Shown: positions 2,383 through 16,230 of the stretch, in pieces
How the letters are laid out: each line of letters opens with the position of its first letter
How positions within the stretch are numbered: the stretch's first letter is position 1
Assembly: GCF_023238625.1 (NCBI RefSeq)
Contig: NZ_CP096670.1
Coordinates: 2,407,501 to 2,471,500, forward strand
Origin: Agarivorans sp. TSD2052
Lineage (GTDB): Bacteria; Pseudomonadota; Gammaproteobacteria; Enterobacterales; Celerinatantimonadaceae
DNA: 64,000 bases
Direction: 5' to 3'
Translations under genes and position numbers: made by a program
The notes under the pieces: generated by a model
Seen by the model: only the letters and a program-made list of their open reading frames with translations
Told to the model about the DNA's origin: nothing
Database searches by the model: none

Positions 2383-4494
2383 ATGCTGAAACGCCTCATC
2401 GCTGGGCTACTTTTGCTCATCTTAAAAATAGTACTTTACCCTTTCAAACTTATTGTTAAAGCCAGCATGCTATTAGTGCGTTGGATAGGGGGCTTGCTTA
2501 AAGCCGTTTGGCAAGTTTGGCTAGCCTTAGGGCCGCGCTGGCTGCGTTATTCGTTTCTCAGTATCGGCATACTCTTAGCCGCTTACTTTGGCTTAAAAGC
2601 CTTTCTTAAACCTAATCTCACCATCGAAACCGTAAATCAGGTTCATTACCTCAATCAGGGATGGACCGACGAGCAACGAGAGCGTTATTACTACACCCCA
2701 CAAGGCACCGAGCTTCTAGGCCTAGAATACGATTGGTTCGTAAATTTAGAACTGCCTTTATCTAAAGACTTGTTAACCAGCCCAGACAATATGCGTGGTT
2801 GGGGCTTTATCGTATCCCCCGGCCAACAGGCTACCATCCTTAATCCAGGCAATTTGCCGGTAGGTTTAGCGCGTCATATTGATCCTAAATCAGGTACCGA
2901 ACGCTTGGATCTGACTTGTGCAATGTGTCATACCGGTGAGTTACATTATCAAGGTAAGGCCTTACGTATTGACGGCGGACAAGCTGTACAAAGCATCTCT
3001 AATGCAAAACGTGGCGAGTTTATCACCACCCTTGGCGCATCAGTGTTAGCCACTTATATTAACCCGTCAAAATGGCATCGTTTTGCTGACCGCGTAGTTG
3101 GACAAGATACGGAATTACGCAAACAGTTACGTAAAGACATTTGGGCCTTTCTAGGGAAAATAAAACAATTTGCCACTGGCGCAGGTTCATCAAAATACTA
3201 CCCTACCGAAGAAGGTCGTGGCCGCACCGACGCGGTAGGTCGAATTGCTAACGTCGTTTTTGGTTTTGACCTAGACGAACCAGCAAACTACCGGGTTGCC
3301 GATGCCCCGGTGAGCTATCCCTTTCTGTGGGACATTTGGCGATTTGATTGGGTGCAATATACCGGTTTTACTAACCAAGCAATGGCACGCAATGTAGGCG
3401 AAAGCCTCGGTGTGTTAGCACCAATCAAACTTGTTAACGAGCAAGGTGAACTACTCAAAACCGAAGAATTTGGTGAATCAGTTATCGACTTAGCCGGTAT
3501 GCATTGCATAGAGGGCACCTTACGTTCACTAGAGCCGCCACGCTGGCCAGAAGCAATTTTGGGAGAGATTAATCTTCCACTTGCCAGCCAAGGTAAAAAC
3601 TTGTTCCTTGACCAGTGTGAGTTTTGCCACGGTCCACACCAGGTGCAGCCCTACGATTGGACCGTAGCCGATAAGCCCGGCGATAATCCCAATAAACAAA
3701 TTGACGTCAACTGGCAATGGGATATGGACGGTGATATCAGCTTTATTGGCCAACGCCCGATCCGCAAAGATTGGCGAGAAGTGATATGGGCAATGCCTTG
3801 GGTTAAAACCGAGGTAATTGGTACCGACTCTACCGCCGCTGATAACTACATGGACCATCGTTACGACGGCAGTAAAATCATACCGGGTTCAGACCCAGTA
3901 AACGCTGGTGACGGCCTACAAATTTTACTTAACCGCTTGGTGCCCAAACTTTACCAAGACAACGGCATTACCAAAGACATGGTTGCAGATTACGACGGCT
4001 TAAATGTTCCGTTCCGTATCGCTAATATGCGCGCATATAAACCTCGGCCTTTACATGGCGTGTGGGCTACTCCACCGTTTTTACATAATGGTTCAGTGCC
4101 TACCTTATACGACTTGTTATCACCGCTACGTGAGCGCCCTACCCAGTTTTATATTGGTAATCGCGAATACAACCCACAGCGTTTAGGTTTTGTTACCGAG
4201 CAACGCCCCGGCAGTTTTAAACACGACACCCGTATTAAGGGCAACAGCAATCGCGGCCACTTGTTTACCGATGTAGACATGGCAGGACGGATTGGCCGCT
4301 TACTCACCGTTGAAGAACGTGCCGCCATTTTGGAATACCTAAAAGTAATGGGGAATCCAGACTTTACACAGCGGCTCGGTGGTGACCCATTAGATTGGTC
4401 TAAATACACACAAGCACCGTCTATTGGCTCAGAGCAACAAGCCTGTATTGATAGCTTTAACGCCGCAAAAAACAACCCGGTAAAGGTACATTAA
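2383..4494 (+). CDS. Membrane-anchored dihaem c-type cytochrome, RoxA-like/cytochrome c peroxidase-related
   Basis: This 703-residue protein begins with a long hydrophobic region (about residues 1-75, likely one or two membrane helices) that anchors a periplasmic domain. Two haem c sites are visible: C179-A-M-C182-H183 and C412-E-F-C415-H416. The C-terminal third contains ANMRAYKPRPLHGVWATPPF and LHNGSVPTLYDLL, the motif shared by RoxA rubber oxygenase and related dihaem peroxidase-like proteins, which also match its size. The role is therefore probably oxidative or peroxidatic; the substrate is unknown. A catalase-family gene starts 1 bp after the stop, so the pair is one operon. A MauG-like enzyme is the main alternative. 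Confidence 0.8.
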   Translation: MLKRLIAGLLLLILKIVLYPFKLIVKASMLLVRWIGGLLKAVWQVWLALGPRWLRYSFLSIGILLAAYFGLKAFLKPNLTIETVNQVHYLNQGWTDEQRERYYYTPQGTELLGLEYDWFVNLELPLSKDLLTSPDNMRGWGFIVSPGQQATILNPGNLPVGLARHIDPKSGTERLDLTCAMCHTGELHYQGKALRIDGGQAVQSISNAKRGEFITTLGASVLATYINPSKWHRFADRVVGQDTELRKQLRKDIWAFLGKIKQFATGAGSSKYYPTEEGRGRTDAVGRIANVVFGFDLDEPANYRVADAPVSYPFLWDIWRFDWVQYTGFTNQAMARNVGESLGVLAPIKLVNEQGELLKTEEFGESVIDLAGMHCIEGTLRSLEPPRWPEAILGEINLPLASQGKNLFLDQCEFCHGPHQVQPYDWTVADKPGDNPNKQIDVNWQWDMDGDISFIGQRPIRKDWREVIWAMPWVKTEVIGTDSTAADNYMDHRYDGSKIIPGSDPVNAGDGLQILLNRLVPKLYQDNGITKDMVADYDGLNVPFRIANMRAYKPRPLHGVWATPPFLHNGSVPTLYDLLSPLRERPTQFYIGNREYNPQRLGFVTEQRPGSFKHDTRIKGNSNRGHLFTDVDMAGRIGRLLTVEERAAILEYLKVMGNPDFTQRLGGDPLDWSKYTQAPSIGSEQQACIDSFNAAKNNPVKVH

Positions 4495-4495
4495 G

Positions 4496-5731
4496 ATGAA
4501 TGACAAACATTTTGCTACAGCTACGATCGCCGCTTGTTTATTCACCCTTGCAACAAGCAGTGTTTCGGCCAGCGACTTATATAAAGAGATGGGCATAACT
4601 AAGCCTGAACAAGAAGCCATTATGTCGGCGATAAACTCTGCCAGAGAGATATCAAAACGGGCTGAGCAATACAATGGGTTACCCTATCGGCGCGATGCGC
4701 ACGCGAAGGCAACCGGCTGCGCGCGAGCAACCTTCTCAATTAACCCCGATATTCCACAGCGATTTAAAGCTGGCATTTTTGCTAATAGTAATCAGCAGTT
4801 CCCCGCTTGGATCCGCTTTTCTAACGGCGATATGTTAGTGCAGGCCGACAGTAAGGGCGATGCCCGCGGGATGGCCGTTAAAGTGATGAATGTGCCAGGC
4901 AAGGCAATTGCGCCAGAGTTAGGTGAAAGCCACAATCAAGATTTCATCATGACAAATACCCCCGCGTTTTTTAATCGAAACATCTTTGATTACGCTGATG
5001 ACATGCTGTATCTGGCCAAGTTTGAACGGACTAAATGGTTTATCAGCTTTTTCCCACCACGTTTGCATCCGAAACAGTTTTATCGTGCGATTCAAACCGT
5101 ATCATCGGTGATCGATACACCGTTAGACGCCCAATACTATTCCATGCTTCCTTACCAGTTGGGGAATAACACCGTAAAGTTTTCTACCAAACCCTGTGCA
5201 GGTATGAGCTTCTCAAGCAAGGTAGACAAAACAAACCCTGATTACTTAAGCCAACAACTTAATAACCAGCTAGCTTCAGGCGGCGCCTGTTTTGAATTCA
5301 TGCTGCAGGAAAAGATCCCGGGGCACTACATGCCGGTTGATGATGCCACGGCGATTTGGTCGGAAAAAGCGTCTCCGTTTATTAGCGTTGCCACCATAAA
5401 CATCCCCCCACAGCACCTGTACAGTGAACAACAGCAGCAGTTCTGTGAGAACTTATCGATGAATCCGTGGCGCGCAGTAGAAGGTTGGGAGCCACTAAGT
5501 AGTTTGAACAAAGCAAGGCGCGTGGTGTATCAAGCGGTATCGCAATATCGTCATAAGCAAAATAAAGCAGCCACACCAGAACCTAGTTCATGGTGCTTGA
5601 GCGAAACTGGAGAGCCTTGTGATCCTCAGCAGGACCTAATCGTGACAAAACCTACTTGGCCATTACCGCGCTGTTTTGATAGTTATGCAAAGTCTTTGTC
5701 GGGAGAACCGCTTGATAGCGACTGCAACTAA
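4496..5731 (+). CDS. Exported catalase-family haem protein
   Basis: This 411-residue protein has an N-terminal signal peptide ending near SSVSA-S (about residue 25). The mature part resembles the truncated catalase-like (y4iL-type) family: RRDAHAKATGCARATF with the distal-His region, then FPAWIRFSNGD, GDARGMAVKV, ESHNQDFIMTNTPAFF with the conserved Asn, and a C-terminal GWEPLSSLNKARRVVY. It is shorter than monofunctional catalases (about 480 or more). Start ATG at 4496 is 1 bp after the cytochrome stop, indicating translational coupling. It probably destroys or uses peroxide in the periplasm next to the dihaem cytochrome. The exact reaction is not known. Confidence 0.8.
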   Translation: MNDKHFATATIAACLFTLATSSVSASDLYKEMGITKPEQEAIMSAINSAREISKRAEQYNGLPYRRDAHAKATGCARATFSINPDIPQRFKAGIFANSNQQFPAWIRFSNGDMLVQADSKGDARGMAVKVMNVPGKAIAPELGESHNQDFIMTNTPAFFNRNIFDYADDMLYLAKFERTKWFISFFPPRLHPKQFYRAIQTVSSVIDTPLDAQYYSMLPYQLGNNTVKFSTKPCAGMSFSSKVDKTNPDYLSQQLNNQLASGGACFEFMLQEKIPGHYMPVDDATAIWSEKASPFISVATINIPPQHLYSEQQQQFCENLSMNPWRAVEGWEPLSSLNKARRVVYQAVSQYRHKQNKAATPEPSSWCLSETGEPCDPQQDLIVTKPTWPLPRCFDSYAKSLSGEPLDSDCN

Positions 5732-6869: not shown

Positions 6870-9710
6870 TTATAGGTCCTCAGACTCGTTTTCTTCTGTC
6901 GGCTCTAACGCTGCTAATTCATTTCTTATTTCACTGTCTAAACCCCAAATAGCCTGCCAAACTAAATCGGTAGTTTGTGCTGTATCGTCGACCCCATGAA
7001 CCAGTTTGATTTGATAATCTACAGTGTCAGAACCAATATTTGAAATATCAACGTAAACCCGCTTAACCGCTTCTATTGCTATCAGTATGGCCTCGATCCG
7101 CGGAATAATTTGCATCGGTTCTAGCTGTTTGTTCACCGAAATTGAAAATCCGCCGGTAACAATCTGACCACTACTGCTCACGTTATTTAAGTTAGCATTA
7201 GCTAAGGTGTTGTTAGGGATGGAGTACAGCGTATTGTCAGCTGTTTTTACCTTGGTGGTTCGCCAGTTCATGTCGATGACCTCCCCCACTATTGGGCCAC
7301 CGTAGCTAGCAATGCTGATCCAGTCCCCTAATTTGAAGGGTTTCTCTAAACTAATGGCAATACCCGAAAAAATATTAACGAGGTTAGACTGCAAGGCCAA
7401 GCCCAAAATCATCGCCACTAAACCAGACGTGGCCAACAAACTGGTTAACTCCCGCTGATAAACGAAAGACAAAATAGCAAAAACAGCGCCAATGTACGCT
7501 AGGCCACGAGTCAGGTGACGCATAATTTTTGGCACTTGGCGGCCACTGCGCCTTTCGATGGGATCCCAGACCAGTAAGTCAATTAACAACGCTAACGTTG
7601 AAGCAAACAATAACCACCACAAAACATCAAAACAGGTACTAGCAAATAATTGATTGGTATTAGGATAGTTCTGGGCAAGCCAATCTAAGAATAGCGGTTC
7701 AGCTGATGCAATAAATAAAGCGTAAAGTAACTTATTGCCTAACGCATAAGCTCTTGGTAATCGGCCCAATAGTTTAAAGTCTAATATCAAGGCATAGACC
7801 AACCAAGCCAATACGCTGCTATAAAAGATAATTTGTTGCCATTGCGCTGGTATACGCCCGCGTAAGCTCAACACATTTTCATGAACAGAACTCAAGGAAT
7901 TAAAGCGAGAGAACTCGATAGCTTGGCGATCAGAATGAAGATATTTGGGATCACCTAAACTGCGTTTACGTAAGGTATCTTGAAAAGATAAACCTTGGTT
8001 TTGCTGCCATTGGTTTGTATCAAACTGCACCTTATGTTGATTGTTATCGTTCCGATGTAGCGCAGTTTGACCCAAGCCAACGATATCCGCTACGTAGATT
8101 AACTCACTTCTTGGCAAGGTTCGATGACGAAAACTCACCCCTAACTGGTACTCGCCAAATGCCGCCCTGCCGGGTTTTGCATCGGCCAAAAACATCCCTT
8201 CTACTTGGTAGAGCTTATAAACGCTTTGGCTCGTGAAATATGACTCTATAGGCTCACCAAGTGTTAAGTCGCCCACTGCGTTTAGAAATGCAATATCCTC
8301 AGCATTTACCCCCGGCGTACTTCTAAACCACAGCTTAAACTTAGCTTTAAACGTCATATCTACTGGGGAAAATTCATTAATGGTCTGCATTTCAATTCCG
8401 GTATAAACAACGTCGGTTCGTCGGGTACGGAGTTTTTCTCCTAATACGGCTTGCAATTGAATAGGCGCTGACACAAACGAGCCACCACTAAATAGCCCCA
8501 CTTGCATAGGGCGTAATACATTACCTTGCGGGTCAAAATATAAGGGATGTGTGAGCCCCTGTATGGCAGCACTTGGTGAATTGAGTCCGGCTAGTTGAAT
8601 TCTAATCGCTGAGCGTTGTTGCGATAAATCGAGCTTAACAAACTCTTGTTCGCCTCCCGATAGGCTCGATGCTAAATCTAAGGCACTAGCGGCAATCGTC
8701 GCAGCATCATAATAAGCCGCTGCTACACCACTAGGTGGGTAACCAAAATCTTGGCTAAAACTCTGATAAAACATTTGAGCAGACTCACTCGCTACATCAA
8801 ATAGTATTGGGCTAACCGCAAACATTCCATTCGTGTAATAACCAGAGACCTCTCGTTCGTGGTTACGATCTTTAAAACGTTCAGGGAAACTTTGTTTACC
8901 GATCGACGAGCTGCCAATCATTAACCAACTGGGGTGTTGGTTTTTTAAGGTACTCACCAATACCGCGCCCTCAACGTCATGCACTGCAAGAAATATTGCA
9001 CCGGTATGACCTAGGGATCGTATTTGTTGGTTTATAGTTTCAGCCTGCTGCTGCCAATCTCCTTTTAAATCAAACGGAAACTGGCTTACATCAATGGCTA
9101 AGCGGTTTGCCCCTGCCAAAAAGGCCTTGGCTAACGATTCGCCAAATTTGTCTTGGCTATACACCAAAGCAGCTTTGTTCTTGCCTAAGGTAGCCATATA
9201 CTCTGCAACAAAACTGCCCTGTAATCGGTTATCTGGGATTACCCTAAATGACCAAGCATTATCTTGGGTAATTTCAGGTGCCGTCGCAGAGCCGCCGATC
9301 ATAGGCAAGCCTGCGCGTTGATAAATACCGGCAGCTTTAATTGACGTGGCTGAAGCACGGTGTCCTAATACAGCAAGCACCTTTTTAGTCTTGGCTAATT
9401 GCCTGGCAATTTGTTCGGCTTTTACGACATTATTACCATCATCGTATTGCTGTATCGTAAGGGCTATTTGTTTGTCTTGCTGTTGCATGTTGTATTGGCG
9501 AACAAACAGTTTGGCACCATTTAACATTGCAATTCCCTTGTCTGCTTCAGGCCCACTCATCGGCCCCACTACCGCCAAGACAAGGGTATTGGTACCAGTG
9601 TGGTTGAACCATTGCTTTAACTGCTCAAAACTGGTGACTAAAGCACTCAAAATAACCACGATAAAACCGAGCAATAAGAGACGGCGTCGTAGGTTCCATT
9701 TCATTTTCAA
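6870..9710 (-). CDS. Chimeric channel: periplasmic binding domain, ligand-gated-channel-like domain, MscS
   Basis: The 946 residues read as follows. One N-terminal membrane helix spans about 11-27. A Peripla_BP_6 (Leu/Ile/Val-binding-type) domain follows at about 42-400 (VVGPMSGPEADKGIAMLNGA, GHRASATSIKAAG, AAYYDAATIAASAL). A beta-rich region at about 430-615 opens with TGIEMQTINEF and TFKAKFKLWF and continues with FRHRTLPRSELIYV. This resembles the ligand-binding domain of prokaryotic pentameric channels, including the Pro-loop spacing. Several helices occupy about 625-755, and an MscS core follows (LLATSGLVAMILGLALQSNL, GIAISLEKPFKLGDWI, IPNNTLANANLNNVS). The TTG at 9710 is well spaced from GGAAG; an ATG at 9704 is the alternative. 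Last gene of a four-gene operon. The BP and MscS calls are firm; the middle domain is inferred by eye. Confidence 0.85.
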   Translation of the reverse strand: MKMKWNLRRRLLLLGFIVVILSALVTSFEQLKQWFNHTGTNTLVLAVVGPMSGPEADKGIAMLNGAKLFVRQYNMQQQDKQIALTIQQYDDGNNVVKAEQIARQLAKTKKVLAVLGHRASATSIKAAGIYQRAGLPMIGGSATAPEITQDNAWSFRVIPDNRLQGSFVAEYMATLGKNKAALVYSQDKFGESLAKAFLAGANRLAIDVSQFPFDLKGDWQQQAETINQQIRSLGHTGAIFLAVHDVEGAVLVSTLKNQHPSWLMIGSSSIGKQSFPERFKDRNHEREVSGYYTNGMFAVSPILFDVASESAQMFYQSFSQDFGYPPSGVAAAYYDAATIAASALDLASSLSGGEQEFVKLDLSQQRSAIRIQLAGLNSPSAAIQGLTHPLYFDPQGNVLRPMQVGLFSGGSFVSAPIQLQAVLGEKLRTRRTDVVYTGIEMQTINEFSPVDMTFKAKFKLWFRSTPGVNAEDIAFLNAVGDLTLGEPIESYFTSQSVYKLYQVEGMFLADAKPGRAAFGEYQLGVSFRHRTLPRSELIYVADIVGLGQTALHRNDNNQHKVQFDTNQWQQNQGLSFQDTLRKRSLGDPKYLHSDRQAIEFSRFNSLSSVHENVLSLRGRIPAQWQQIIFYSSVLAWLVYALILDFKLLGRLPRAYALGNKLLYALFIASAEPLFLDWLAQNYPNTNQLFASTCFDVLWWLLFASTLALLIDLLVWDPIERRSGRQVPKIMRHLTRGLAYIGAVFAILSFVYQRELTSLLATSGLVAMILGLALQSNLVNIFSGIAISLEKPFKLGDWISIASYGGPIVGEVIDMNWRTTKVKTADNTLYSIPNNTLANANLNNVSSSGQIVTGGFSISVNKQLEPMQIIPRIEAILIAIEAVKRVYVDISNIGSDTVDYQIKLVHGVDDTAQTTDLVWQAIWGLDSEIRNELAALEPTEENESEDL

Positions 9711-9731: not shown

Positions 9732-10769
9732 TTATTCATAGTAATTGTTCGTGGCACGAGCAAAGGCTTCCAAAACCTTTGGCACGACTATTTCACGCTT
9801 CAGTAATGCTTTCCGACGCAGTGCTACGACATACTGTTTAGATACGGTAATTGGCAACTCGGCTAGATGTTTCGGTTCATTCAGTAGCTCCAGCGCAAAA
9901 TTAAAAGCGACTTCTCCCTGCTCAAAAGGAGAGGCGCCAACTGACAGCATCATGCCGTCTTCAGAATTAAAGGCATTGATACCAATAATCGGTAATGTCG
10001 AATGCTGTTCGGTCCATTGCGCAACCGTTTGCGCTGAAACAAACTTGCCGTCCTCGCCCCCTAATAACTTGCGATAGCCACCCACCATTAAGTATTTGTA
10101 GTTACCTTCCAGAGATAACACCGCTTGCTGCCATTCCGTGAAGCTATTCACCACCACATGCCCTTGATAATCAATGGGTGACCAAACTTGCTTGGCCAAA
10201 TAATTCCCATCGTGTTTGGCTGAAGATGAATTATCCGAAAGATAAATAATTTTCCCGGCGAGTTGTCCTGGTATGGGTTGGGCCTCAACCAACAAGCGTA
10301 AAACTTCTTTCACCGCCGATACCGATTTGCGTTCTAAAATACCGGTTACATTACTGGCATGTTGATAACCGTAGGTTTCTAACTCAGCGTTGACCCCGGC
10401 AAACACAATTTGGATATCGGGCTTATCAATGTACTCGGCAGCAACAAGGCGTTGCGCATCATCATCAATCACTATCATTACGTCGGGTTGAAAAGAGTCC
10501 ACCACCCTTTTGGCCACCGTTGCAGCGCGCTTTTTCGCGGCTTCGCTAGATTGGTTTTTGGTATTCATGTAGTGATAACGGATATCAACATTCAGGTGCG
10601 CTGTTTTCGCTCGCTCAATGCCTTGATTAACCGTTCTAGTCCACGAATAATCAGTATTGTAGCTATGTAATATCAACAACCTAGGCCGAGATGAACCTTC
10701 AATGAGGGTGATGGCAATGGTGGCAACCAAAAAACTAAACATAACGATGCTTAACAATAATTTCTTCAT
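9732..10769 (-). CDS. ABC-type substrate-binding protein (ABC_sub_bind family), no cognate transporter
   Basis: This protein of about 345 residues has an N-terminal hydrophobic segment (KKLLLSIVMFSFLVATIAITL) acting as signal or anchor. It is followed by RPRLLILHSYNTDYSWTRTV, a motif typical of ABC_sub_bind (PF04392) periplasmic proteins, and by PDVMIVIDDDAQRLV and IQIVFAGVNAE. The frame extends to 10793, but the ATG at 10769 overlaps the upstream stop as TAATG, which indicates translational coupling and sets the start. No ABC permease or ATPase lies nearby. The partners are a CNBD/SLC13 fusion and a channel that carries its own binding domain, so a sensing role is more likely than ABC import. 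The ligand is unknown. Confidence 0.8.
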   Translation of the reverse strand: MKKLLLSIVMFSFLVATIAITLIEGSSRPRLLILHSYNTDYSWTRTVNQGIERAKTAHLNVDIRYHYMNTKNQSSEAAKKRAATVAKRVVDSFQPDVMIVIDDDAQRLVAAEYIDKPDIQIVFAGVNAELETYGYQHASNVTGILERKSVSAVKEVLRLLVEAQPIPGQLAGKIIYLSDNSSSAKHDGNYLAKQVWSPIDYQGHVVVNSFTEWQQAVLSLEGNYKYLMVGGYRKLLGGEDGKFVSAQTVAQWTEQHSTLPIIGINAFNSEDGMMLSVGASPFEQGEVAFNFALELLNEPKHLAELPITVSKQYVVALRRKALLKREIVVPKVLEAFARATNNYYE

Positions 10770-12616
10770 TAGATAAGCCCCATACTTTGCCAATACGGGA
10801 TACTGAGATACACCGCCACTAGCTTAAACAGATAAACCGACAGGTTGAGTTTCATCAGTTTCGATTCATCAGCGGTGACGACGCCGCTGGTTAAACTTAA
10901 AAACTGCATGTAATAAGAAGCCTGAAACGGCCAAAAAAAGCTTTCTGAAAGGAACAGTATTAAGAAGCCAATCACCCATGGATTCACTCCTACTTCTATA
11001 GATGCGGGAATCAACAAGGTGGCTAAAATGACCACTGTCGCATTGATAGGTAACACTAAACGGACGACACTAACGATAAGCGCTAGCATTACTACGAATA
11101 AGGCCAAACTTTGCTGCATATATATTGCTAACCAATATATTTTACTGGTTAACCAAACATCCAATTCTACCTGATTTATAATGTCGACCATGCCGATCAA
11201 CGAACCCAAAAAAACCAAAAAACTCCAGTCAATTTTTGAACGGAACTGATTGGTATTTAAAAAGCCGAACATCAATAAGTAAAACAATATGGCTAACGCG
11301 ACCCAAGCCACTTCAATCCGATGGATATTGGCAAACAGCAAACTGGCGATTAACACAATAAGCCCAAGTACTGAAGACCATTCAGCGGGGTTAAGTGGGC
11401 CTAACGTTCTGAGCTGCTGCCGGCTGATAGATTTTGGGATCTTTAACGCTTGTTTGTTGCGGTATATCCAGCACAACGCAACGGTATATAAAGCCAACAC
11501 AACCAAACCACAAACAATGGCGGCCAGCAACCAATCTAACCATTGAAAATACTGTTGTACCTGCTGTGGCAGCATGCCCAGTACAATGAAGTTTACTGAT
11601 TTACTACTAACAAATATTGGTGAGAGCAAACTTGCGCCAAACAACAAGCTAGCTTTTAAACGCGGTCCTTCTTGCTCACGAGCTTCTTTAGAAGCGCCAC
11701 TGAGTAAATCTTTGAGGAACGGCGCGACAATAGTTACACGACCATTCACCGTGGGTACAACAGGTGTTAACAACGCGCCTACACTGAAAAAACTGAGGTT
11801 GTACCAAATTTTTGACGCCGGACCAATGAGTAAAAGATGCAACAGCATTCGATAACTGAGGCCAGACGATCTGATCACGGCACTTAAACCCAAAATGCTT
11901 AAAGCCATGAAAAAACTATTGCTAGAAAATCCGGAAAAAGCCGATTCGCTAGAGCTTATACCCAGTAATACCGCACTGAGTATGGCAAATAACCCTGGCA
12001 CATAGTCGGGAAGCAATCGAAAGATCCACATAATGGAACAGATGCCTAAGATAGACGCAAAATAAATGGCATCTTGATGCAAAGGCTCGCCACTAAGCGT
12101 AAGACCGAAGTAAATCATTACTGGTGTAATCAACGCGAATAACCAGCCAATCAACAAGCGATAGCCTATTTCGACTTCTACTTTAGGCGCTAAATCAACT
12201 TCAATATAGGTTTGCCCGGCCAAACGGGCATGAAAGCTATCTAATAGGCATTGCTTAAAACTGGAATAACGATCTAAAGCTTTCACCGCCGCGAGCGGTA
12301 ATACTACCACTTCGGCACAATCGACCACTTCGATGTCGTAGATATAGCTACGCATGCCCAGTGTTGACTCTTCACCAAAAAAACCACTGATAGGTCCCTT
12401 TGCCTGATCCTTATTGGTGGTTTCTAACTGACCATTGAGCAAATAATAAAGATTATTGGCTTGGTCTCCGGATTGGCAGAGTACCTCTCCTTCAGCAAAT
12501 TTTTGAATCGTGACATTAGCGAGCAATCGCGCTAAGTCTTCTTTGTCACAAGCGGCAAAAGCCGGATTACTATTTAAAAACTGACTGATCTTCTGTAGGG
12601 AATCGGTATCACTCAT
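10769..12616 (-). CDS. Cyclic-nucleotide-binding domain fused to SLC13/DASS-type permease
   Basis: The product is 615 residues. Residues about 10-125 form a cyclic-nucleotide-binding-type domain (FAEGEVLCQSGDQANNLYYL, GQLETT, FFGEESTLGMRSYIYDIEVV). Residues about 150-615 form a multi-helix permease of the SLC13 (divalent anion:sodium symporter) type, including FVSSKSVNFIVLGMLP and VVRLVLPINATVVILATLL. The ATG at 12616 overlaps the lipoprotein stop (ATGA) and is preferred over the TTG at 12622. Uptake of a carboxylate or inorganic anion gated by a nucleotide is the simplest reading. Whether the CNBD still binds cAMP cannot be told from the sequence. Confidence 0.82.
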   Translation of the reverse strand: MSDTDSLQKISQFLNSNPAFAACDKEDLARLLANVTIQKFAEGEVLCQSGDQANNLYYLLNGQLETTNKDQAKGPISGFFGEESTLGMRSYIYDIEVVDCAEVVVLPLAAVKALDRYSSFKQCLLDSFHARLAGQTYIEVDLAPKVEVEIGYRLLIGWLFALITPVMIYFGLTLSGEPLHQDAIYFASILGICSIMWIFRLLPDYVPGLFAILSAVLLGISSSESAFSGFSSNSFFMALSILGLSAVIRSSGLSYRMLLHLLLIGPASKIWYNLSFFSVGALLTPVVPTVNGRVTIVAPFLKDLLSGASKEAREQEGPRLKASLLFGASLLSPIFVSSKSVNFIVLGMLPQQVQQYFQWLDWLLAAIVCGLVVLALYTVALCWIYRNKQALKIPKSISRQQLRTLGPLNPAEWSSVLGLIVLIASLLFANIHRIEVAWVALAILFYLLMFGFLNTNQFRSKIDWSFLVFLGSLIGMVDIINQVELDVWLTSKIYWLAIYMQQSLALFVVMLALIVSVVRLVLPINATVVILATLLIPASIEVGVNPWVIGFLILFLSESFFWPFQASYYMQFLSLTSGVVTADESKLMKLNLSVYLFKLVAVYLSIPYWQSMGLI

Positions 12617-13365
12617 CGGCAATATTGCCCAGTAGGAATGACAGCATTAATCTGATATTCACCACCGGGTACTAGGATATACTCGCTGGCTCCTTGTTTA
12701 GAAATAGGATTACCCCAATCATAGGTATAACCTAAGCCTGTCCAAGGCACGCCAGTACCCGATCCCCTGAAACTCTTAAAATACAGGGCTTGATAAAAGT
12801 TAGCGTAATCTTCAATCCCTTTTACCGAGCTAGCCATTTGGTCGCTAGCTAAAACACACGAGTGGTCATCAATTTGCGGATCAACACAAGGGCGGAATAA
12901 ATCTTCTGGTGCTACGTACATCTCTACAAAAGCGTCATAGTTCCAGCTTGCGTCTAAACCTAAATACTGTTTTAAACGCAATGCTAATTGTTGATCGTTG
13001 CGCTCAGGTTGTTGCTGTAAGTATTGTTGGCAGAAGTGTTTAACTTGAGGCGCTAAGGTGACCCAAATAGGATAGTTAGGGTTGTTTGAACTATGGCTAT
13101 TAGGCAATAGAAACTGATCAATGGCTGACTGACTTTTCCAAGTCAACACTAGCACCTTATCGGCTTGTTCGTTCCATTGCAAAAGTGTGTTTTCTGGGTT
13201 TAGTGCGAAGAGCGTATGGCTAACATCCTTTACAGTAGGAAACGCCGCCTGTATGACCGCTTGTTGGTAGTTTTGCGATGGTTCTTTGAGGTTTTGGCTA
13301 CAGCCGAGCAATACAGTGCTTAAACCAACTGCTACTGCTATTTTGGTAGTTGCTAATGTGTTCAC
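12613..13365 (-). CDS. Lipoprotein of unknown function, first gene of the channel operon
   Basis: This 250-residue protein starts at a GTG preceded by AGGGA. It has a lipoprotein signal peptide with lipobox LLGC and the lipidated Cys at residue 22. The mature part contains KVLVLTW, NYPIWVTLAPQVKHFC, LDASWNYDAFVEMYVAPEDL, FRPCVDPQIDDHSC and GVPWTGLGYTYDWGN, with several cysteines that could form disulfides. I do not recognise a characterised family. Its 4-bp overlap with the CNBD/SLC13 gene implies one transcript and a related role, perhaps as a periplasm-facing accessory of the transporter. Confidence 0.75.
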   Translation of the reverse strand: MNTLATTKIAVAVGLSTVLLGCSQNLKEPSQNYQQAVIQAAFPTVKDVSHTLFALNPENTLLQWNEQADKVLVLTWKSQSAIDQFLLPNSHSSNNPNYPIWVTLAPQVKHFCQQYLQQQPERNDQQLALRLKQYLGLDASWNYDAFVEMYVAPEDLFRPCVDPQIDDHSCVLASDQMASSVKGIEDYANFYQALYFKSFRGSGTGVPWTGLGYTYDWGNPISKQGASEYILVPGGEYQINAVIPTGQYCR

Positions 13366-14172: not shown

Positions 14173-15990
14173 TTAAGCAACCATGGCCTTATTTCGCCCG
14201 CTTTCTTTAGCGCGATAAAGTGCTTGGTCAGATACGCTAATTAATTGTTCAATGCTTTCCTCAGAATCCATCAATGCGACACCAATGCTCGTCGTGAAGC
14301 GAACTTGAACTCCTCCTGCATCAACAACTAACTTTTCAACTTCGCTGCGTAAACGTTCAGCTGTTTGAGTGGCGGTATCTTTATCAGCACTTAAGGCAAG
14401 TCCAAACTCTTCGCCACCTAAGCGGCCAAATACATCGCCATCTCGGATTTCATTTTCTATCGCATTAGCAAACAATTGTAAGGCTTTATCTCCAATGGCA
14501 TGGCCATGAGTATCATTAATCTTTTTAAAGTGGTCTATATCAAACATTAACATCGACATTGGGTGAGAGCGATTACGACAACGGTCAAACATCGCTTCAG
14601 CCTTGGCCATAAAACTACGCCGGTTATTAATGCCCGTTAATAGGTCTGTACGGGCTTCTTTCTCAGCTTCTGATTTGGCTATTTCTAATGCCTGTGTACG
14701 TTCAAAAACCAAAATTTCAAGCTCTTGTTTAGCCCGTTCTAATTGACTACGGTAACGCAACTCTGCTTGCTCTTTTAGGCGGCGTAGACGGAATAAATGA
14801 ATCCCCATAGCTACCATTATTACCATCATCTCGCTGTAAGAAGCGACCACCGGCCAATAATAAGTGACAAACGTATGCTCAACTAAACCTAAGTCACGCA
14901 ATGCTTGGCTAAACAAGCCAACCACAAGCACTATCCAACCTAAGGTATACACTGCGGATTCACGAGAGCCTTGATACCAACGAATCAAACTTGCGATGGC
15001 CAGTACCGGATACAATAACAAGGCTATAGTGATAAGCATCACCGAGAATACCGTTTCACGAGTGAGTGCAGCCAAGGCTAATAAGCCGGCATTAAGAATC
15101 ATAAATTTGAGCACATAATCTAAGCGAGGCGTATATAACTTAGTTTGCAAGAAAATGCGCGCAAATATAACACCGGTCATGATCGACATTGCCCCAGTGA
15201 GAGACATATAACTCCAATGAAAATCATCACGAATGAAAAACATGTGAGTAAAACCAAGAATGGTTGGCCAAGTCGCTAACTTAGTAGAGGCATAAACAAA
15301 ATAGGCATAGTAGGTTTTATCGTTGGTGGCGATACCGGTAACTAATGAGATAATCGCCATTAAGGCTAAGCCCCCAACTAGAAAGGCAATACTGCCTAGC
15401 TCGATGCTTTGCACGTAGTGCATTTTATCGGGTTGCCAGAGCCTTAATTCAGGGAATACAAATCCCTTCTCGTCAGAGCCGAATCGAAAATAGAACTGAT
15501 GTGTTTCGCCAGCACCAAGCTCAACAGGTACCACAAAGCGCTGATGACTCACTAAACGCTCGGAAAAAGAGTTACTGAGAGCTAGGTCTGCTATTTCTAA
15601 AAAGCTAGGGTCTTGGGTATTGCGTTGGTAAGCATTCAAGTAGATGAGCTGATGGTCAACATACTCTAGGTTAAGAGTTATAGGTTTATCACTATCATTA
15701 TGTAAATAAAAGACACTCCAGAACGCGCCAGCTTGTAAACCCGTAGAGCCTTTGCTTTCCAGTCGCTTAAAGTTGTTTAAACGAAATGCGGCCATGGCAT
15801 CGGCCAAATCGGCTCGGCCATCTTGGTCATGCCAAACCTGAAAGTGTTGTCCTAGGCGTAAGCCGTCTTCTAGGCCATTGACGTGAAGTGCGGTAAGGGG
15901 TTCTGCATAGGCTTTGGATAGCGTAAACCAGCAACACAATAAAACAATAAACGGCAGTTTGCCCATACGGCATAATAGGTTAGCTTTCAT
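14173..15990 (-). CDS. 7TMR-DISM receptor diguanylate cyclase (GGDEF)
   Basis: This membrane-bound diguanylate cyclase of about 605 residues probably makes cyclic di-GMP. It has a signal peptide (FIVLLCCWFTLSKAYA), a periplasmic 7TMR-DISMED2-like sensory domain to about residue 190, seven transmembrane helices, a short coiled coil (RLKEQAELRYRSQLERAKQE) and a GGDEF domain with an intact GGEEF active-site motif at 525-529. FKKINDTHGHAIGDKAL is also conserved. No RxxD inhibitory site stands out. The start is uncertain: the frame extends to 16074, and the ATG at 15990 lacks a good ribosome site. The 7TMR-DISM family senses small ligands; the ligand here is unknown. Confidence 0.88.
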   Translation of the reverse strand: MKANLLCRMGKLPFIVLLCCWFTLSKAYAEPLTALHVNGLEDGLRLGQHFQVWHDQDGRADLADAMAAFRLNNFKRLESKGSTGLQAGAFWSVFYLHNDSDKPITLNLEYVDHQLIYLNAYQRNTQDPSFLEIADLALSNSFSERLVSHQRFVVPVELGAGETHQFYFRFGSDEKGFVFPELRLWQPDKMHYVQSIELGSIAFLVGGLALMAIISLVTGIATNDKTYYAYFVYASTKLATWPTILGFTHMFFIRDDFHWSYMSLTGAMSIMTGVIFARIFLQTKLYTPRLDYVLKFMILNAGLLALAALTRETVFSVMLITIALLLYPVLAIASLIRWYQGSRESAVYTLGWIVLVVGLFSQALRDLGLVEHTFVTYYWPVVASYSEMMVIMVAMGIHLFRLRRLKEQAELRYRSQLERAKQELEILVFERTQALEIAKSEAEKEARTDLLTGINNRRSFMAKAEAMFDRCRNRSHPMSMLMFDIDHFKKINDTHGHAIGDKALQLFANAIENEIRDGDVFGRLGGEEFGLALSADKDTATQTAERLRSEVEKLVVDAGGVQVRFTTSIGVALMDSEESIEQLISVSDQALYRAKESGRNKAMVA

Positions 15991-16230
15991 GGTGGTATTG
16001 CTTAAGCACGCCTCTTCCCTGCGTTGTTGAAGTAGTTGAATAAATAATGATTGTACAACCCTGTAACAAAACATTAACCACTAGGTCGAGCTTAAAGATA
16101 AATGCTAGAGAAGTCTACGAAGTAGCCTCTAATAGGCGATTTGTCATCACGGCTCTCATTGTCATAACAATGAGTCGAGCTCATTCAATGTTACGCGCGA
16201 AGATAAACTGTTCTGCGCTATTTGGTAGAT

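Follow-up and report, generated by a model that had tools for sequence, protein, structure and literature searches.

Published surveys of prokaryotic pLGICs place the ligand-binding domain (LBD) on its own four-helix pore (4TM), with three interface residues as the signature of coupling. The Pro-loop proline has been called the only absolutely conserved residue of this superfamily, and the partner of the pre-M1 arginine is the aspartate of the Pro-loop (PMC4795631). The LBD and the 4-TM core have been described as preserved in bacterial forms (Tasneem et al. 2005, PMC549065). For MscS channels, 15 subfamilies carrying additional domains, among them domains that bind ligands, have been reported, and the sections of that source drawn on here name no LBD-MscS combination (PMC4560390). 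The original prediction that no described protein joins a type-I periplasmic binding protein domain (PBP), an LBD and an MscS pore agrees with our search of the open-access full-text literature, in which we found no earlier description (the 2012 review behind PMC4560390 lies outside this scope).

The window analysed here, a stretch of 64,000 nucleotides from an Agarivorans-type genome of 4.6 Mb (Agarivorans sp. TSD2052), carries such a gene (Table 1). We computed the order of the domains, the homology of each, the grouping of the MscS-type LBDs into a single clade and the loss of the pLGIC coupling residues; the predicted architecture, with PBP, pLGIC-type LBD and MscS pore in one protein, is supported with three corrections. 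The ORF, 6870-9710 on the reverse strand, runs for 946 codons without a stop from a TTG start, with an in-frame ATG two codons downstream, and the Peripla_BP_6 and MscS matches noted earlier at its ends are confirmed (E 2.6e-24 and 3e-18). Full-length orthologues with 74-78% identity occur in four further Agarivorans genomes, so the fusion is no assembly joint. No match was found at E 1e-30 in the other 144 sampled genomes of the order, one congener among them. Within the genus the identity of the PBP is 62-68%, that of the LBD 79-84%, and that of the pore helix and beta-domain 95-96%. This genome also has a PBP gene about 3 kb from an MscS gene, and a split version of the fusion was considered for the two and rejected: the MscS ORF is separate, and the PBP gene heads a same-strand run with the spacing of a Liv-type ABC operon.

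Table 1. Features of the fusion gene and its upstream neighbours, in window coordinates.
Feature	Position	Strand	Evidence
PBP-LBD-MscS fusion gene, 946 aa	6870..9710	-	uninterrupted frame; full length in 5 Agarivorans genomes
Membrane segment, signal anchor or signal peptide, residues 11-29	9624..9680	-	hydropathy
Type-I periplasmic binding protein domain, residues 45-402	8505..9578	-	Peripla_BP_6 E 2.6e-24; phmmer
pLGIC-type ligand-binding domain, residues 431-612	7875..8420	-	AF2 pLDDT 79; Foldseek AChBP E 2.5e-9; hhalign E 1e-15
Degenerate Pro-loop RAAFGEYQL instead of YPxDxQxL, residues 515-523	8142..8168	-	joint alignment
Residue 611 (E) at the pLGIC pre-M1 arginine position	7878..7880	-	R in 27/27 4TM relatives, 1/36 MscS-type
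Three N-terminal TM helices of the channel part, about 625-650, 657-677, 690-717	7536..7847	-	hydropathy, family alignment
MscS TM2, TM3 pore helix (LLATSGLVAMILGLALQSNLVNIFSGI) and beta-domain, residues 726-846	7173..7535	-	MS_channel_2nd E 3e-18; YnaI
C-terminal cytoplasmic MscS part, residues 847-946, without the cNMP domain of several relatives	6873..7172	-	
Solute-binding protein (ABC_sub_bind/TrpX-like), probably same operon	9732..10793	-	PF04392 E 1.6e-6; order kept in 5 genomes
cNMP-binding domain N-terminal on DASS-type transporter, overlaps both neighbours	10769..12622	-	cNMP_binding E 2e-8; Na_sulph_symp E 5.8e-23
250-aa protein, lipoprotein-like N-terminus, first gene of putative operon	12613..13365	-	no family; order kept

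The N-terminal domain belongs to the type-I PBPs, with a Peripla_BP_6 score over residues 45-350 of 87 bits against a curated Pfam cut-off of 31.7. Its nearest PDB matches by phmmer are 4mlc, an extracellular ligand-binding receptor (3e-21), and the Leu/Ile/Val-binding proteins LivK and LivJ (about 1e-14 to 1e-16). At the other end, Pfam places MS_channel_2nd, the MscS beta-domain, at residues 779-845, and the best PDB channel match is YnaI (residues 660-844, E 3e-14), with E. coli MscS matching residues 743-904 (E 4e-9). Five helices follow the LBD (limits by hydropathy and alignment), which would put the PBP and LBD on the periplasmic side of the membrane and the vestibule on the cytoplasmic side. 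TM3 retains its hydrophobic constriction, having M and L where MscS has L105 and L109. Both marks of the MscS superfamily, the TM3 pore helix and homology in the upper vestibule (PMC4560390), are present; the C-terminal cNMP domain on MscS that marks bCNG channels is absent.

By structural model and profile comparison, the middle domain (about 431-612) is a diverged pLGIC LBD. Pfam gave nothing over residues 430-620, and 0/36 MscS-type LBDs (alignment A4) matched any Pfam family of relevance when the threshold was relaxed to E 1. The segments TGIEMQTINEF (437-447), TFKAKFKLWF (453-462) and FRHRTLPRSELIYV (527-540), which had prompted the comparison with pLGICs, lie where they were predicted and align in the same order as in bacterial pLGIC LBDs. 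To guard against circularity, the AlphaFold model of residues 425-640 was built from the 36 MscS-type rows only (pLDDT 79, pTM 0.72, beta-rich); a single-sequence model of the full-length protein (pLDDT 37) was left out of the evidence. The model of 425-640 is the sandwich of Cys/Pro-loop receptors, the structure that the prediction had named as its test. Foldseek matched it to 1105 PDB chains at E <= 0.001, and AChBP made up 50/50 of the matches listed (best E 2.5e-9, probability 1.00, TM ~0.6). The MscS-only LBD profile aligned near full-length with the LBDs of four solo pLGICs (hhalign 98.6%, E 1e-15, 160 columns), reaching E 4e-20 when two further LBDs were added, while neither control, the profile reversed or a set of three unrelated domains, produced a match. 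With the model, these alignments identify the extracellular Ig-like LBD of the pLGIC superfamily. The MscS-only profile A2 found no match among PDB sequences, so the case for homology is built from the structural model, the profile-profile comparison and intermediates. Among the latter, BLAST joins the fusion LBD to the three nearest PBP-LBD-4TM relatives (E 9e-25 to 5e-14, small database), whose own LBD profile matches ELIC/GLIC at E 4e-7 to 2e-5. One of the solo pLGICs (L086, an LBD-4TM protein) matches GLIC, ELIC and GABA-A structures at E down to 3e-12, and the 4TM parts of L039, L038, L067 and L084 match Neur_chan_memb with E values from 6e-6 to 3e-4, scores that fall short of the curated cut-off.

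A different kind of beta-sandwich in the middle, resembling a pLGIC LBD by convergence, would accord with this missing PDB sequence match, with a pairwise identity to AChBP of only ~10% and with the lack of a Pro-loop. The near full-length hhalign match with its negative controls, the BLAST-level homology to LBDs on four-helix pLGIC pores and the uniform AChBP result among the Foldseek matches listed already largely refute convergence, and we give it hardly any credence.

The domain lacks the residues that couple pLGIC LBDs to their pores. The original prediction of a prokaryotic Pro-loop channel LBD stands for fold and homology and fails for the strict Pro-loop: the fusion protein has A, G and E (Pro-loop AAFG) at the positions of the Pro-loop proline, the acidic residue and the pre-M1 arginine. 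It thus departs from the [F/Y]PxD Pro-loop of the pLGIC superfamily, and in place of a pre-M1 arginine and a four-helix pore with M2 it has E611 and an MscS pore. All three residues (P, D/E and R) occur together in 27/27 4TM relatives and 0/36 MscS-type proteins in the joint alignment, and in 14/14 and 0/19 after thinning to 60% identity; since the MscS-type LBDs are one clade, Fisher p-values overstate the independence of these counts, and the contrast may represent one stem-lineage event. Singly, the MscS-type LBDs retain the proline in 8/36, the acidic residue in 4/36 and the arginine in 1/36, against 27/27 for both proline and acidic residue in the 4TM type. Both types share the core residues V435, G438, W461, F462, R463, D542, W568 and S601, which indicates that the fold persisted and that its contact with the former pore was given up. 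Loss of the triad with retention of the LBD core, new in the present analysis, is what a pore swap predicts. Two short LBD-4TM proteins (L089:1924-3141 and L080:1418-2626) have APLE or VPIE rather than [F/Y]PxD in the Pro-loop and retain P and R.

The protein had been taken for a lone chimera; it is instead a member of a broad family that spans two or more classes within the phylum. Residues 401-623 alone found homologues in nine further genomes of the class sample, and the LBD profile matched in 42/399 genomes of the phylum sample. In one sister class of the phylum 21/48 genomes have a match; by our classification of architectures, about 17 of the 21 encode at least one MscS-type protein that is complete or nearly so, and some encode several. 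We distinguish PBP-LBD-MscS, PBP-LBD-MscS-cNMP, LBD-MscS-cNMP and PBP-LBD-4TM architectures and a few short LBD-4TM proteins. Nearly all LBD-MscS proteins (n = 36) have a PBP and some a cNMP domain, which is C-terminal in L029-L034, L040, L071 and L072. L040:8421-10748, an LBD-MscS-cNMP protein without a PBP, shows the pore swap at its smallest. L031:6753-10553 has ~100 additional residues with several additional hydrophobic segments between the LBD and the MscS helices, and L085:1037-3403 and L088:1007-3658 are divergent PBP-LBD-4TM proteins, the former given no channel family by Pfam. In the LBD tree (joint alignment) the 36 MscS-type LBDs form one side of a 100/99 branch, with PBP-4TM proteins as nearest neighbours, which fits a single pore exchange. 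The root of this tree is not fixed, so the direction of the exchange is inferred: a PBP-pLGIC would have lost its four-helix pore and been joined to an MscS pore. The base of a PBP-domain tree, built for co-inheritance of PBP and LBD, is not resolved, which leaves co-inheritance unproven.

The fusion gene is the last of a tight same-strand run in its five carriers, after genes for a 250-aa protein, a cNMP-DASS transporter and a solute-binding protein. Outside Agarivorans, the relatives whose neighbourhoods we compared do not share this operon; L032 lies beside a TRAP transporter operon and L035 beside a TAXI-type binding protein. The binding protein and transporter in the operon suggest a nutrient, for example an amino acid or an organic anion, as the solute that is sensed. 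The cNMP-DASS fusion (10769-12622, reverse strand) stands close to an MscS-type gene without the cNMP domain that several relatives carry. Elsewhere in the window, a RoxA-like c-type cytochrome gene is directly followed by a catalase-like gene (2383-5731, forward strand; the pair occurs in four Agarivorans loci), and a 7TMR-DISM diguanylate cyclase gene lies upstream of the operon (14173-16074, reverse strand; order kept within the genus). The cNMP-bearing transporter of the operon, and the recurrence of cNMP domains on relatives, would also suit a non-conducting receptor whose MscS part signals to the cytoplasm or to the neighbouring transporter without ion flow. We consider this quite improbable given the conserved pore helix and hydrophobic constriction.

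From its architecture, the protein is probably a channel opened by extracellular chemicals; that its opening depends on a solute in the periplasm is the simplest reading. It is fairly likely to be an inner-membrane subunit composed of an anchor, a PBP, a pLGIC-type LBD, five TM helices ending in TM3 and a cytoplasmic vestibule, together forming a solute-responsive MscS channel. A solute would bind in the cleft of the PBP, at interfaces between LBDs or at both, and move the LBD assembly; this motion could pass through the first three helices to TM2/TM3 and either open the pore directly or shift the tension threshold. A cytoplasmic nucleotide may be a second input in those relatives that have a C-terminal cNMP domain. 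pLGIC LBDs are pentameric and MscS is heptameric, so the LBD would pack in a non-classical way or form no classical ring, and with the known coupling residues lost, any coupling would be by a new mechanism, or is absent. We are evenly divided on whether a receptor-type LBD gates an MscS-type pore without the Pro-loop/pre-M1 interface, possibly as a seven-fold ring, with the PBP (and cNMP in relatives) as extra inputs.

Alternatively, the protein might still be a tension-gated safety valve, with the PBP and LBD as a periplasmic scaffold for cell-wall contact or oligomer assembly rather than a gating sensor. The intact MscS pore and beta-domain as the most conserved part, the missing pLGIC coupling residues and the PBP as the least conserved main domain within the genus are all consistent with a scaffold; retention of the PBP-LBD pair across distant families, invariance of W461, F462, R463, D542, W568 and S601 in the MscS type, the several ordinary MscS proteins already encoded in this genome and the second sensor, cNMP, added in several relatives argue against it. 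We judge the scaffold unlikely, though it deserves more weight than the other alternatives.

The protein is a natural hybrid, in a marine bacterium, in which the sensing domain known from nicotinic/GABA-type receptors, preceded by a domain of the amino-acid-binding type, sits on an unrelated pressure-valve-type (MscS) pore instead of its usual one, suggesting that chemicals open some of the channels classed as 'mechanosensitive'. An LBD moved to an unrelated pore with its signature gone and its core kept is a natural control for separating coupling from folding residues, and may help to explain how a sensor of five-fold symmetry can work on a pore that is normally seven-fold. Among known systems, the prokaryotic pLGICs with an N-terminal PBP-I (Tasneem et al. 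2005, PMC549065), of which L035, L038 and L039 are examples, have the PBP-I and the pLGIC-type LBD in the same order, but keep the LBD and 4-TM core, whereas in the fusion MscS replaces the 4-TM pore and P/D/R are absent. Compared by LBD, pore and Pro-loop, GLIC, ELIC and DeCLIC share the LBD fold and differ in the other two. The bCNG channels (Malcolm et al. 2012, as cited in PMC4560390) likewise combine an MscS pore with an added ligand-binding domain; their sensor is cytoplasmic, while those of the fusion, which has no cNMP domain, are periplasmic, and several of its relatives have a C-terminal cNMP domain. The YnaI-like MscS subgroup shares the pore helix, the beta-domain and the five helices of the channel part, to which the fusion adds two large periplasmic ligand-binding modules at the N-terminus.
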